From: Jiangella asiatica
Lineage (GTDB): Bacteria > Actinomycetota > Actinomycetes > Jiangellales > Jiangellaceae
Assembly (NCBI RefSeq): GCF_004349065.1
Contig: NZ_SMKZ01000059.1
Location: forward strand, 1 to 40,446
Reading direction: 5' to 3'
DNA: 40,446 nucleotides
Part shown: one piece after another, positions 33,151-39,669 of the stretch
Layout of the letters: every line of letters starts with the position of its first letter
Numbering within the stretch: the stretch's first letter is position 1
Made by a program: the position numbers and the translations under genes
The notes under the pieces: model-generated
The model's database searches: none
Told to the model about the DNA's origin: nothing
The model's input: the letters and a program-made list of their open reading frames with translations, nothing else

Positions 33151-33210
33151 CCCCGTGATCATCAACGGTTGGCGACGCCATGGCGTCGCCAACCGTTGAT
33201 GATCACGGGG
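33151..33210. repeat. Perfect 60-bp palindrome without spacer
   Basis: The two 30-base arms (left beginning CCCCGTGATCATCAACGG, right ending CCGTTGATGATCACGGGG) are exact reverse complements that meet at 33180/33181 with no loop; the symmetry stops sharply at both ends. As RNA it would make a stem of up to 28 bp. It lies between hisG and the first sigma operon, so it could terminate hisG, act as a barrier in both directions, or be a mobile palindromic repeat. Confidence 0.9.
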
Positions 33211-33222
33211 TCTCTCGCGCAT

Positions 33223-33249
33223 GCAACCCGGAACCGGCCGCCGTCCGTC
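33223..33249 (+). promoter_or_regulatory. ECF-type promoter of the first sigma operon
   Basis: GCAACC (33223-33228), 17-nt spacer, CGTC (33246-33249). An identical -35 and spacing recur at 35119-35145 before the second sigma gene. AAC/CGT pairs are typical of ECF sigma promoters, so autoregulation is likely. Confidence 0.6.
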
Positions 33250-33283
33250 ACTATGGTGAGGTCGGTTGGGGGAGGGCGGGTAG

Positions 33284-33808
33284 ATGCTTGCCATCGACGA
33301 GGCGTCGTATCGCGAGTTCGTCACGGTGCGCCGCCGTGCGCTGCTGCGCACGGCGTACCTGCTGACGGGCGACTGGCACGCCGCCGAGGACGTCGTGCAG
33401 GAGACGCTGGCCAAGCTCTACGTCTCGTGGCGGCGGGTGCGCCGGCGCGAGGAAGCCATCGGCTACGCCCGCAGGACCCTGCTCACCACCTACATCGACA
33501 GCACCCGCCGGCCGTGGCGGCGCGAACATACCGTCGACGCCCTGCCTGACCTGGTCGGCGCCGGCGACCCGGCCGACCTCGGCGCGCCCGACACCCGCCA
33601 CCGGCTCATGGCCGCGCTGGCCCGGGTGCCCGCACGGCAACGGGCGGTGGTGGTGCTGCGGTTCTGGGAGGACCTCTCCGTCGAGCAGGTCGCGGAGCTG
33701 CTGAGCTGCAGCTCCGGCAACGTCAAGAGCCAGACGGCGCGCGGCTTGGAACGGCTGCGCGAGCTGCTGGGCGCCGACGACCTCATGGCACTGAGGGATG
33801 CGGTATGA
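33284..33808 (+). CDS. SigE-family ECF RNA polymerase sigma factor, copy 1
   Basis: A 174-residue ECF sigma factor of the actinobacterial SigE family. Region 2 covers about 8-75 (ALLRTAYLLTGDWHAAEDVVQETLAKLY, in part ALLRTAYLLTGDW and AEDVVQETLAKLY; then GYARRTLLTTYID). Region 4 covers about 110-165 (RQRAVVVLRFWEDLSVEQVAELL and SSGNVKSQTARGLERL). GGGGGAGGG precedes the ATG. The stop overlaps the start of a membrane-anchored partner (ATGA). An ECF-type promoter lies 34 nt upstream of the ATG. It is a close paralogue of the protein at 35183, equal in length. The stress it answers is unknown. Confidence 0.93.
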   Translation: MLAIDEASYREFVTVRRRALLRTAYLLTGDWHAAEDVVQETLAKLYVSWRRVRRREEAIGYARRTLLTTYIDSTRRPWRREHTVDALPDLVGAGDPADLGAPDTRHRLMAALARVPARQRAVVVLRFWEDLSVEQVAELLSCSSGNVKSQTARGLERLRELLGADDLMALRDAV

Positions 33809-35103
33809 CCGACGCGAAGCTGAAGGAACTGTTCACGCAGGCACTCGCCGACGAGCCTCGCGCGCTGCCCGCCGTGGACGACGACATCGCCCGCGGTCGT
33901 GCTCTGCGCTCCCGGCGCCGGCGCACCCGCATCGGCGGGGGAGTGGCACTGCTCGCCGTCGTGGGCGCTGGCGTCCTGGTGGTGCCCGGCCTCCTGCCCG
34001 ACGGCGACGGCGCGCCCGCGGCGTCCGACCCCAGCAACCAGGTGTGGCCCTACGAGACGCCCGCCAAGATTCAGGAGCAGCGGACCAGCGGCCTACTCGA
34101 GGAGCTGGCGCAGGCCGAGTCCGGTGGCGACGAGACCGCCGAGGTCTTCACCGACTCCGCGGTCAGCGTGGGATCGGTCATCGAGCAGGAGCTGTGGGCG
34201 GCGGTCGAACCGGTCCTGCCCGACGACCTGGTGCTCGAGAGCTCCATCATCGCCCAGGGCGGGATCGGCACCGAACACGCTCTCAACTTCGCGGCCGTGC
34301 GCGGGGACACGACCTTCTCCATCGACATCGTCCTCCAGGAGTCCCGGCCGGACCTGCCGGAGTTCCAGCCGTGCCGCGAGCCGGCGGAGATTCCCGACGG
34401 CGTCGCGCAGTGGGCCCCGTGCCAGCAGGGTTACGACGACCAAGATCGCTGGCGCATCGTCGGCCAGGCCGGCGATCACACGGGTGTCGCCGTCGCCGAG
34501 GGAGGCACTGCCGCCGCTATGGTCGAATGGAGCTCGACGATCCACGACGTCGGCACCGCCACGGACACTGTCGGCGACTTCGCGGACACGCTGACCTTCG
34601 AGGAAGCGAACGCCCTGGCCGAGGCGGCCTGGTCGGTGGGTGCCGAGCACGACGAAGCCGAGCTGGTCAGCGGATGGGACATGGCGGCGGCGGCCCGGGA
34701 TGCCTGGCCGCGGATCAAGTCGGCCGTCGAGCACGGCCTGGGTCTGGGACCGCTGGCTCAGACCGGTTTCTACACAAGCGACCCGTCGACGATCGTCGCC
34801 CAGTTCCGCACCGTCGACGATGTCCGGATCGACCTGGCGATCTGGCAGGACGACCGGTTCTACGAGAACCTCTGCACCGCCTCCGCTTCGGGGGTGTGCG
34901 AGTCATGGGTCGGGAGCGTGTCCTACTTCCAGCAGATGAACGACGACGAGGCGGCGATGATCGGTGGCGGGGGGCTGGGCCTCGGTCACTACGACCTCAT
35001 CGTGGGGACGGGCGCGACCCTCGACCCCGATCGCCACCTACCCATCGGGGACGCCATTCCCCAGCATCGTGTGCCCGCAGTTCCGGCGTCGAACGAGGAT
35101 TGA
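33805..35103 (+). CDS. Membrane-anchored partner (probable anti-sigma factor), copy 1
   Basis: A 432-residue single-pass protein. The cytoplasmic part is about 45 residues (MTDAKLKELFTQALADEP, then DDDIARGRALRSRRRRTR). One helix follows (VALLAVVGAGVLVVPGLL, about 48-65), then an extracytoplasmic domain of about 365 residues. Pairs of Cys (about 194, 212 and 356, 366 by eye) may form disulfides. No zinc anti-sigma HxxxCxxC motif is present. Being coupled to a sigma gene and having a basic cytoplasmic segment that is shared with copy 2 suggests that it holds the sigma factor and senses a signal outside, but this is inference; no named domain is recognised. Confidence 0.75.
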   Translation: MTDAKLKELFTQALADEPRALPAVDDDIARGRALRSRRRRTRIGGGVALLAVVGAGVLVVPGLLPDGDGAPAASDPSNQVWPYETPAKIQEQRTSGLLEELAQAESGGDETAEVFTDSAVSVGSVIEQELWAAVEPVLPDDLVLESSIIAQGGIGTEHALNFAAVRGDTTFSIDIVLQESRPDLPEFQPCREPAEIPDGVAQWAPCQQGYDDQDRWRIVGQAGDHTGVAVAEGGTAAAMVEWSSTIHDVGTATDTVGDFADTLTFEEANALAEAAWSVGAEHDEAELVSGWDMAAAARDAWPRIKSAVEHGLGLGPLAQTGFYTSDPSTIVAQFRTVDDVRIDLAIWQDDRFYENLCTASASGVCESWVGSVSYFQQMNDDEAAMIGGGGLGLGHYDLIVGTGATLDPDRHLPIGDAIPQHRVPAVPASNED

Positions 35104-35118
35104 CGCCGGCCAGGCCGT

Positions 35119-35145
35119 GCAACCGGACAGCCAGGGCACTCCGTG
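35119..35145 (+). promoter_or_regulatory. ECF-type promoter of the second sigma operon
   Basis: GCAACC (35119-35124), 17-nt spacer, CGTG (35142-35145). It repeats the layout found before copy 1 and lies 37 nt before the ATG. Confidence 0.55.
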
Positions 35146-35182
35146 GACGGGGTGAGAACCTGGTGACCGGTGGAGGGCTGAC

Positions 35183-35707
35183 ATGCTGGCGAACGACGAG
35201 GCGTCGTTCCGCGAGTTCGTCGACGCCCGCAGCACCCGGCTGCTGCGCACGGCGTTCCTGCTGACCGGCGACTGGCACCTGGCCGAGGATCTCGTCCAGG
35301 AGACGCTGGTCAAGCTCTATGTCGTGTGGCGGCGGGTCACGCGGCGCGACGACAACGAGCCCTACGCCCGCAAGACGCTCGTCAACACCTACATCGACAG
35401 CACTCGCCGGCCGTGGCGGCGCGAGCACGCCGTCGAGGCCGTCCCGGACCGGATCGGTACCGGCGATCCGGCTGACCGCGGTGACCCCGGGACGCGGGAC
35501 CGGCTGCTCGCGGCGCTGGCCGGGGTGCCGCCCCGGCAGCGGGCGGTTCTGGTGCTGCGATTCTGGGAGGACCTCTCGGTCAACCAGGTCGCCGAGCTGC
35601 TCGGCTGCAGCTCCGGCAACGTCAAGAGCCAGACTGTGCGCGGCCTGGAACGGCTGCGCCAGGTCCTCGGCCCGCAGGTACTCGCGACTCTGGAGGAGCA
35701 GCGATGA
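35183..35707 (+). CDS. SigE-family ECF RNA polymerase sigma factor, copy 2
   Basis: A 174-residue ECF sigma factor that parallels copy 1 along its whole length without gaps. Shared blocks include LLRTA-LLTGDWH, AEDxVQETLxKLYVxWRRV, YIDSTRRPWRREH, RQRAVxVLRFWEDLSVxQVAELL and CSSGNVKSQT. The differences concentrate in the linker between regions 2 and 4 and at the C-terminus. GGTGGAGGG precedes the ATG. The stop overlaps the next gene by ATGA. The identical operon layout shows a tandem duplication of a two-gene unit. The DNA-contacting parts are nearly unchanged, so both factors may read the same promoters. Confidence 0.93.
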   Translation: MLANDEASFREFVDARSTRLLRTAFLLTGDWHLAEDLVQETLVKLYVVWRRVTRRDDNEPYARKTLVNTYIDSTRRPWRREHAVEAVPDRIGTGDPADRGDPGTRDRLLAALAGVPPRQRAVLVLRFWEDLSVNQVAELLGCSSGNVKSQTVRGLERLRQVLGPQVLATLEEQR

Positions 35708-36894
35708 CCGACCCGGTGTTGAAGGGGTTGTTCAGGACGGCTCTGTCCGACGACCCGGTGCCCGAGGTGTCAGCGGACGAGATCATCGCCCGCGGGCGGG
35801 CGCGTCGTCGGCGCAACCGTCGTGGATGGACCGCTGCTGGAGGTGCACTGGCCGTGGCGGCCACGGCAGCCGCTGTTCTGGTGGCGTCGTACCTGCCCGG
35901 TCCGGTCGACGGCCAAGTGGCCCGGCCCCCGGCCGATCCGCGTCCGGACGCGAGCGTGGATCCGTCCGTGAACGCCGACCCACTCCGTGCCGAGCTGTGG
36001 GAGGCGGTGGCCGGCGCACTCCCAGAGGAAGCCGACGACATCGCCGTGACCGCGCACCCGGGTGAGTTGGGGCTGCAGCTGAACCTCACGGTGTTCGGTC
36101 AGCTGGTGGTCATGGAGGTCTTCCTGCAGGAGGCACGGCCCGACCTGGAGCCGCTTGACTGCGACCAACTGCGGTCCGTCCCATCGGTGGAGGAAGGCTC
36201 GTGCGAGGACGGACGTGACTCCGAGGACCGCTGGCGCGTGTCGTTCGACGGGCTGCACCAGTTCACCCTCCTCGAGGGAGGGTCGGCCGCGTCGGGTGTG
36301 ACCTGGGACGTGATGCCGGCGCCCGACACGATAACCGAGCCGGCCGTCGCGGAATCGGCGGGCGATCCAACGGAGCCGGCCTTCACCAGCGAGCAGGCGG
36401 ACGCCGTGGCGGACGCCGCCTGGTCTGTCGGCGCACAGCACCCTTCCGAGGAGCTGATCCGAGGCGTCGACCTGGAGGCCACCGCCGCCAACTGGTCGGT
36501 CGCCCGGGCGACCCTGGAGGCAGACATCGGCCGGGGACCGCTCACCTACGTGGGTCCCGGCGGCACCGAACCCGCCGTGGAGATCACCGACCCGGAGCAC
36601 CAGGTCGGGACCGTGTCGGCCACCTACCGTGCCGAGGACGGCACCGAGGTCGAGCTCGTAATCCGCCAGGTGCCGCGCTTCTACGACGAAATCTGCTACG
36701 AGGAGATCGCGGTATGCGACCGGCTCACCAACTTGTCCTACGCGACCGGCGACCCGGTGATCGACGAGTCGCGGACCGGGAGGCTGGCGGTCGGCCAACG
36801 CTCGGCAGCCTGGCTGTACGTCACCGCGCCTGACGTGCTGGCGATCGAACTCTGGTCAGCGGTGTCCAACGCGGAGGTGTGGATCGGCGAGTGA
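35704..36894 (+). CDS. Membrane-anchored partner (probable anti-sigma factor), copy 2
   Basis: A 396-residue single-pass protein. The cytoplasmic segment (MTDPVLKGLFRTALSDDP, then ADEIIARGRARRRRNRRG) clearly matches copy 1, and one helix lies at about 45-65. The outer domain of about 330 residues shares scattered motifs with copy 1 (ELWEAV, VFLQEARPDLEPL with LQESRPDLPEF, EDRWR with QDRWR, ADAAWSVGAQH with AEAAWSVGAEH, ELI-RGVDLEA with ELVSGWDMAA) but has otherwise diverged. So the inner part is conserved and the outer part varies, as expected if the two sense different signals while controlling related sigma factors. Function is inferred. Confidence 0.75.
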   Translation: MTDPVLKGLFRTALSDDPVPEVSADEIIARGRARRRRNRRGWTAAGGALAVAATAAAVLVASYLPGPVDGQVARPPADPRPDASVDPSVNADPLRAELWEAVAGALPEEADDIAVTAHPGELGLQLNLTVFGQLVVMEVFLQEARPDLEPLDCDQLRSVPSVEEGSCEDGRDSEDRWRVSFDGLHQFTLLEGGSAASGVTWDVMPAPDTITEPAVAESAGDPTEPAFTSEQADAVADAAWSVGAQHPSEELIRGVDLEATAANWSVARATLEADIGRGPLTYVGPGGTEPAVEITDPEHQVGTVSATYRAEDGTEVELVIRQVPRFYDEICYEEIAVCDRLTNLSYATGDPVIDESRTGRLAVGQRSAAWLYVTAPDVLAIELWSAVSNAEVWIGE

Positions 36895-38385: not shown

Positions 38386-39669
38386 TCAGAGGAACGTCTT
38401 GCCGTCGCCGCGGTAGGTGGCGACGGTGTCGACCAGCCGCTCGCCGCGCACCAGGTAGTAGGAGTCGAACCGCTCGGACAGCTCGCCGGCCTTGCCGTGG
38501 CGGAACCAGACGCGGTCGCCGATGGCGAGGTCGTCGGCGGGGGAACCAAGCAGCGGCGTCTGCGCCTCGCCGGCGCCCTCGGAGCGGTCCAGCGTCAGGC
38601 CCTCCGGCAGCCACGGCACCGGCAGGCGGTCTTCGCCGGCCGCGCCGCTGGCGATGTAGCCGCCGCCGGCGACCGTGACGATGCCCGGCCCCGGCCGGCG
38701 CACCACCGGAACCGCGAAGAACGCGGCCGGCCGCGGCGAGAAGCTCGTATAGCCGTCGAACAGCCGCGGCGCCAGCAGCCCGGACCCGGCGGTGACCTCG
38801 GTGATGGACAGGTCGGAGACGGTTCGCTCGATGGAGCCGCTGCCGCCGCCATTGACGAACTCCAGGTCGGCGACCTTGCGGACGGCCTCGACCGCGGCGA
38901 TGCGCCGCTCGGTCAGCTCCGACCACGAGCGGCGCTGCATGGACCGGATCAGCCGGCCCCGCCAGGCGTGCCCGGGCGGCGCGTCCTGGACGCCGGCGAT
39001 CTGCGACTCGTACCCCAGGAGCCCCACCAGCCGGAACCCCGGCCGCGAATCCACCACCTGCGCCAACCGCACGATGTCGTCGACGCTGTGCAGCGGGGAG
39101 CGCTTCGCGCCGACCCGGACCCGCCCTCCGGCCGGCCGCCAGGACAGGTCCAGCTCGAGACAGACCCGCACCTCCGCGCGGCCGTCGGTCGGCGCCACCG
39201 CGTCGACCAGGTCGAGCTGCGCGACGTCGTCGACCATCAGCGTCACGGCCTCGGCCAGCTCCTCGTCGCCGGCCAGCCGGGACAGCCCGCGCCGGTCGGC
39301 ACTGGGGTACCCGACGACGACGTCCCGGCTCAGCTCGGTGCCAGCCAGCCACAACGCCTCGGCCAGCGTCAGCGCGAGAACGCCGTCGTAGCCGTCGCGG
39401 GCCAGCACGTCGCGCAGCAGCGACCGGCTGCGCAGCGACTTGCTGGCGACCCGGATCGGCTTGCCGGCGGCCCGGCGCACCAGGTCGGCGGCGTTGACCT
39501 CCCAAGCGTCAATGTCGATGGCGGCGAGTGGAGCCTCGAAGCCGGCCGTAGCGGTGTTGAGCCGGTGGCGCAGGTCAGCCCGGGAGCTCGCCGGCGGCGG
39601 CGCGGGCGTGGACTCCGTCGGCGGGGGCGGTAGGTCTGGCACGGTGGCTTCAGGCACGGTGATCTCCAC
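38386..39669 (-). CDS. PLP-dependent amino acid deaminase/aldolase (alanine racemase-fold)
   Basis: A 427-residue enzyme of the fold-type III PLP family (alanine racemase N-terminal barrel), related to D-threonine aldolase and D-serine dehydratase. The PLP lysine is Lys77 in IRVASKSLRS. VNGGGSGSIERT (about 271-282) would bind the PLP phosphate, and VTAGSGLLAPRLFDGY follows. The C-terminal beta domain includes AGGGYIASGAAG and IGDRVWFRHGKAGELSERF, which in the related enzymes carries metal-binding His/Cys residues. The exact D-amino acid substrate is open. The Pro-rich first about 30 residues are probably disordered. It starts at GTG 39667-39669, with TAAGGA 6 nt upstream. Confidence 0.85.
   Translation of the reverse strand: MEITVPEATVPDLPPPPTESTPAPPPASSRADLRHRLNTATAGFEAPLAAIDIDAWEVNAADLVRRAAGKPIRVASKSLRSRSLLRDVLARDGYDGVLALTLAEALWLAGTELSRDVVVGYPSADRRGLSRLAGDEELAEAVTLMVDDVAQLDLVDAVAPTDGRAEVRVCLELDLSWRPAGGRVRVGAKRSPLHSVDDIVRLAQVVDSRPGFRLVGLLGYESQIAGVQDAPPGHAWRGRLIRSMQRRSWSELTERRIAAVEAVRKVADLEFVNGGGSGSIERTVSDLSITEVTAGSGLLAPRLFDGYTSFSPRPAAFFAVPVVRRPGPGIVTVAGGGYIASGAAGEDRLPVPWLPEGLTLDRSEGAGEAQTPLLGSPADDLAIGDRVWFRHGKAGELSERFDSYYLVRGERLVDTVATYRGDGKTFL

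Follow-up and report, generated by a model that had tools for sequence, protein, structure and literature searches.

Tandem ECF sigma factor/membrane partner units in Jiangella asiatica: a putatively autoregulated module whose outer sensor domain has apparently been exchanged in relatives

The two consecutive sigma/partner units of the soil actinobacterium Jiangella asiatica are best read as autoregulated ECF sigma factors (TIGR02983) placed under putative single-pass anti-sigma sensors. We consider it quite probable that each unit works as an ECF switch that amplifies itself, that the two act as parallel channels rather than as one cross-inhibited circuit, and that the outer sensor has been replaced at least once. 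In the proposed mechanism, the short cytoplasmic segment of the partner would hold its sigma factor at the membrane until a signal at the outer domain leads to its release, and the released sigma factor would then transcribe its own operon from GCAACC-N17-CGT (i.e., positive autoregulation) and probably a few further genes. Two parallel channels are likelier because each unit apparently has its own sigma factor, promoter subtype and cytoplasmic segment. Across the genus, these three parts would tend to be inherited together, and the outer sensor domain would have been replaced through recombination near the membrane segment. This type of system, which resembles an ordinary stress switch, is already known, and its layout was correctly spotted in the original prediction.

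The window is the whole stretch of DNA that was analysed, 40,446 nucleotides of contig NZ_SMKZ01000059.1 (positions 1 to 40,446), and the nearest relatives of its source genome are Jiangella. Gene calls and coordinates bear out two consecutive sigma/partner pairs, each with an ATGA overlap, as well as the presence ahead of each pair of GCAACC-N17-CGT(C/G) with identical -35 and spacing, and leaders of 34 nt (unit 1) and 37 nt (unit 2) from promoter to start codon. The features are as follows.

33223..33249, plus strand: promoter of unit 1, with -35 GCAACC at 33223-33228, N17, and -10 CGTC at 33246-33249; conserved in relatives
33255..33259, plus strand: GGTGA block 3' of the unit 1 -10, an extended-pattern match
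33284..33808, plus strand: sigma factor 1, 174 aa, SigE-family / TIGR02983, by profile matches
33805..35103, plus strand: partner 1, 432 aa, putative single-pass membrane anti-sigma factor, with residues 1-45 cytoplasmic, TM 46-64, then the outer domain to the end
33805..33939, plus strand: cytoplasmic segment of partner 1, with predicted helices 3-15 and 24-47
34159..35100, plus strand: folded outer domain of partner 1, residues 119-432, with two predicted alpha/beta halves; Cys190/206/357/365 invariant in the alignment
35119..35145, plus strand: promoter of unit 2, with -35 GCAACC at 35119-35124, N17, and -10 CGTG at 35142-35145
35151..35155, plus strand: GGTGA block 3' of the unit 2 -10, an extended-pattern match
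35183..35707, plus strand: sigma factor 2, 174 aa, SigE-family / TIGR02983, by profile matches
35704..36894, plus strand: partner 2, 396 aa, putative single-pass membrane anti-sigma factor, with TM residues 43-61

The GGTGA block after the unit 1 -10 probably lies near the transcription start. Upstream, 12 nt 5' of the unit 1 -35, positions 33151-33210 form a perfect 60-bp palindrome with 30-nt arms and no spacer. This palindrome is one member of a dispersed family whose ends, CCGTGATCA...TGATCACGG, are fixed and whose interiors vary and are largely self-complementary. The family was found at 26 places spread over eight of the 12 Jiangella genomes, against 0 for the control, and at the equivalent spot in J. 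gansuensis (G003) there is a copy with a different interior.

The order hisG-[one or two units]-MOSC is syntenic in all twelve Jiangella genomes, with two units in eight of them and one in four (G001, G005, G006 and G008); G008 has an additional unit elsewhere in its genome. The MOSC domain label was tested by profile search, while the genes labelled ribH, hisE, hisG, udk and AlaR at the locus are ones we take to be such, and the protein labelled AlaR presented no Pfam match at E <= 0.001. The same search yielded no Pfam match for a 427-aa protein encoded at 38386-39669 on the minus strand, whose identity across the Jiangella genomes compared is 85-93%. In G011 (L148, ~5654 on the reverse-complemented locus), the first of two units has decayed, with its start codon lost and its frame disturbed, and its promoter is still recognisable. 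Six units come from other genera of the family (five Phytoactinopolyspora, plus G015), and no hisG or MOSC match was found in the stretches fetched around them.

Both 174-aa sigma factors match Pfam Sigma70_r2 and Sigma70_r4/r4_2 over cut-off, i.e., they consist of sigma regions 2 and 4 only, as ECF factors do, and they score 170 and 175.7 bits against the SigE-family NCBIfam model TIGR02983, above its curated cut-off of 141.55. Their alignment is gap-free, as had been claimed, with 73% identity over 172 residues (72-73% across comparisons). Given that each unit has its own sister in J. gansuensis in the sigma trees, the pair is not a fresh duplication, and the trees indicate that the two units are old paralogs.

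Sections of PMC8103513 describe canonical ECF modules by an AAC/CGT promoter, sigma2 and sigma4, a co-transcribed anti-sigma factor, and autoregulation. In common with such membrane anti-sigma modules, the units present an AAC -35 and a CGT -10 before the operon, which were found in both, sigma2 and sigma4 only, and an overlapping downstream membrane partner. They differ in that the partner has a cytoplasmic part of ~45 aa which matches no anti-sigma family, and an ectodomain which Pfam and NCBIfam models do not recognise. SigE of S. coelicolor is a namesake that differs further: according to passages of PMC6767563, it is controlled by a two-component system with no anti-sigma factor, its own promoter is not a SigE target, and it is not autoregulated.

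The source genome presents 58 TIGR02983 match rows (some of which are two pieces of one gene), with seven genes over the cut-off. Six of the seven are followed by an ORF with a 4-nt overlap, and the seventh (L036) by an ORF 11 nt on. Only three of the seven have GCAACC-N15-18-CGT in the 200 nt preceding the matched region, and two of these are the window's. A second tandem of sigma/partner pairs exists in the same genome (C87; L236:2638-6581), with different sigma and partner types and one sigma gene below the cut-off.

Within the window, 2.14 occurrences of a loose form of the promoter motif (N15-19) are expected and two were found. In the genome scan, the exact GCAACC-N17-CGT yielded 30 matches, near the background given by 20 for the reversed control, and with these counts the check on random frequency put forward in the original prediction comes close to refuting the motif. 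The motif is rescued by its footprint in relatives: GCAACC-N16/17-CGT is present in 25 of 27 upstream regions of related units in the family, whereas 300 simulated sets averaged 0.03 such regions and reached 1 at most, and although these 27 units are not independent, the motif is still common to several genera of the family. Once GCAAC[CG] is permitted, the spacing is N17 in 26 of the 27 units; the exceptions to the motif are G015_P (GCAACG) and G001_1 (GCAAG, no -10). Of the 26 units that have a promoter, 23 also show a third block, [AG]GTG, which follows CGTN after 5 nt (21 units) or 6 nt (two units). The extended pattern TGCAACC-N16-18-CGT-N5-7-GGTGA matched at 19 places in 12 genomes, and 12 of these places are at the units, against 0 for the reversed control; a looser extended pattern had 23 places (14 units, five before one glycosyltransferase gene, and four elsewhere), against 2 for the control.

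Beyond the family, GCAACC-N17-CGT precedes 12 of 35 distant actinobacterial loci (simulated mean 0.018, maximum 1 in 500), a set in which several loci come from one genus and 23 lack the motif; 33 of the 35 were found to have a partner whose hydrophobic segment is N-proximal. Both footprints support the idea that the units share one autoregulatory promoter type, and by this comparative evidence the promoter is better supported now than the original prediction could show. As regards the overlapping regulons proposed in the original prediction, the two -10 boxes differ, CGTC in unit 1 and CGTG in unit 2, and the -10 flanks vary by sigma class. Upstream of first units in L147, L143, L140 and L138, the -10/start region lies, by eye, inside a nested inverted repeat, GTTCCG...CGGAAC around GGTGAGG..CCTCACC, which in this first-position class of relatives is perhaps an operator or a leader hairpin.

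Each partner has one hydrophobic segment, and a single N-proximal one is present in all 25 complete partners compared; with this segment and the ATGA overlap, each partner is a candidate co-transcribed anti-sigma factor. It is plausible that both partners are sensors. No Pfam or NCBIfam family exceeded the cut-off for partners 1 and 2, and their 28 relatives gave single weak matches only. The four ectodomain cysteines are invariant in 28 aligned sequences. For the ~45-aa cytoplasmic segment before the hydrophobic segment, in which two helices are predicted, no match was found to any solved chain in the PDB set, nor to anti-sigma families.

Class I anti-sigma domains (ASDI), which parts of PMC7406223 give as four helices of ~100 aa (101 +/- 33 aa), are thus unlike the segment found here. 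The CnrY-like class II anti-sigma factors, as described in passages of PMC7406223 and PMC4598750, have in common with the partners a short cytoplasmic domain of two helices (predicted here), which in the CnrY-like factors wraps around sigma2 and sigma4, but presented no sequence match to them in the PDB set; moreover, the sensor to which CnrY is linked, CnrX, is separate, whereas the partners carry a large outer domain fused. Sigma-I factors of the SigI/RsgI system of Clostridium thermocellum are, according to passages of PMC4711584 (see also PMC12203970), ECF-like only to some extent, and that system differs from the present one, where a single homologous ectodomain family has apparently been exchanged at one locus.

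The statement that the two partners are conserved in the cytoplasmic segment but differ beyond the membrane was not confirmed as written. The outer parts are also homologous, with 32% identity over 270 aa (E 3e-27), and the cytoplasmic segment is just 49% identical, less than the sigma factors. Over 300 unit pairs, sigma identity correlates with cytoplasmic identity at r = 0.71 and with ectodomain identity at r = 0.60; since the former is only slightly higher, it is mild evidence for cognate pairing. Ten pairs of one sigma class with differing ectodomains have cytoplasmic segments that are 66-84% identical, and the values between that class and WIN_1 (window unit 1)/G003_1 are 56-64%, which suggests that cytoplasmic segments follow sigma class loosely.

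These values bear on the cross-wired pair of the original prediction, in which each sigma factor would read both promoters and each partner would inhibit both, so as to form one circuit. Such a circuit would agree with the -35 and spacing being identical in both units, with the gap-free 73% identity of the sigma factors, with 56-64% cytoplasmic identity being possible between different sigma classes, and with the regulon overlap among B. subtilis ECF factors discussed in a portion of PMC6767563. However, the 49% identity of the window's own cytoplasmic segments falls below the 66-84% of the ten same-class pairs, and the CGTC and CGTG -10 boxes with their class-specific flanks also set the units apart, so that we regard one shared circuit as unlikely on balance. 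For the two units, the sequence comparisons mildly favour insulation over cross-inhibition. The proposals of cross-inhibition and of divergence outside the membrane are better replaced by a picture of probable inner cassettes with an outer sensor that is homologous and sometimes exchanged.

A candidate second target of this promoter type is a glycosyltransferase gene (Pfam Glycos_transf_1), for which every one of the 12 Jiangella genomes gave a single match at E <= 1e-90. A unit-type promoter is recognisable before it in all twelve, with TGCAACC-N17-CGT exact in ten of the upstream regions; the spacing is N16 in G005, and one -35 base is missing in G011, where the rest aligns. The site is located as follows.

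G000:C37:251120-251157 (L007), minus strand: ECF-type promoter before the glycosyltransferase gene, conserved across Jiangella

In the source genome, this gene lies within ~10 kb of NTP_transferase and dTDP_sugar_isom (rmlA/rmlC-like) genes and of other glycosyltransferases. G001 keeps the glycosyltransferase promoter although its own unit's motif is lost. In eight other family genomes that have the gene, no such promoter site was seen upstream.

The promoter might be real and yet be read mainly by another ECF factor, the units being its targets and not self-amplifying. The genome has many ECF-like genes, the promoter also stands before the glycosyltransferase gene in every Jiangella genome, including G001, and an AAC -35 is common to most ECF promoters (parts of PMC4598750 and PMC8103513). 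This reading seems improbable, however, given that in related genera the motif stays with the sigma gene at other positions in the genome, that it does so at 12 of the 35 distant loci, and that its flanks vary with sigma class, as self-recognition predicts.

In relatives, the extracytoplasmic domain has apparently been replaced while promoter, sigma factor and cytoplasmic segment stayed, as judged from trees and identities. In flanking-gene trees, G004 and G010 are sisters and G009 is next (support 100/99 and 100/100). Between G010_2 and G009_2, identity is 91% for sigma, 84% for the cytoplasmic segment and 29% for the ectodomain, and DNA identity in a sliding comparison is 95% where sigma ends, drops to 77% and is down to 33-59% past the membrane segment. 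The G010_2 ectodomain is instead up to 79% identical to that of window unit 1 (37-79% along the ectodomain). The cytoplasmic segments of G004_2 and G010_2 are 66-84% identical to those of the five remaining members of their sigma class; against WIN_1/G003_1, with which they share the ectodomain type, the identity is 58-62%. The sigma DNA tree rejects the ectodomain grouping (p-AU 0.00066), and the ectodomain tree rejects the sigma grouping with moderate significance (p-AU 0.025), the swap clades for these tests having been chosen after the first trees were seen. Two other pairs, G005_1/G008_1 (sigma 87%, ectodomain 31%, cytoplasmic 44%) and window unit 2/G003_2 (83%, 36% and 49%, respectively), may reflect whole-partner replacement or fast change, since their cytoplasmic parts diverge too.

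That the ectodomain differences are due to fast divergence and not to replacement by recombination is unlikely. In its favour, partners evolve fast throughout (their end branches have a median of 0.24, those of sigma 0.081), the trees contain long branches, and the ectodomain AU value is 0.025. Against it, the G004_2/G010_2 ectodomains are nearer those of the distant units WIN_1/G003_1 than that of G009, a neighbouring species, with sigma factor and cytoplasmic segment showing the opposite; the promoter flanks side with sigma and cytoplasmic segment, and the sigma AU value is 0.00066.

We tentatively propose, with somewhat less than even confidence, that the hisG-MOSC locus is a sensor-exchange site. 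There, a matched inner cassette (promoter, ECF sigma factor, two-helix CnrY-like segment) would be kept, and a fast-evolving, disulfide-stabilised outer domain of an undescribed family would be swapped by recombination close to the membrane segment, so that the same regulon would come to answer to new envelope signals. With these results, promoter and module are clearly defined for a large class of actinobacterial sigma/sensor pairs. Should the swap be true, it would constitute a natural domain-exchange experiment, separating the anti-sigma part tied to sigma specificity from the signal part.
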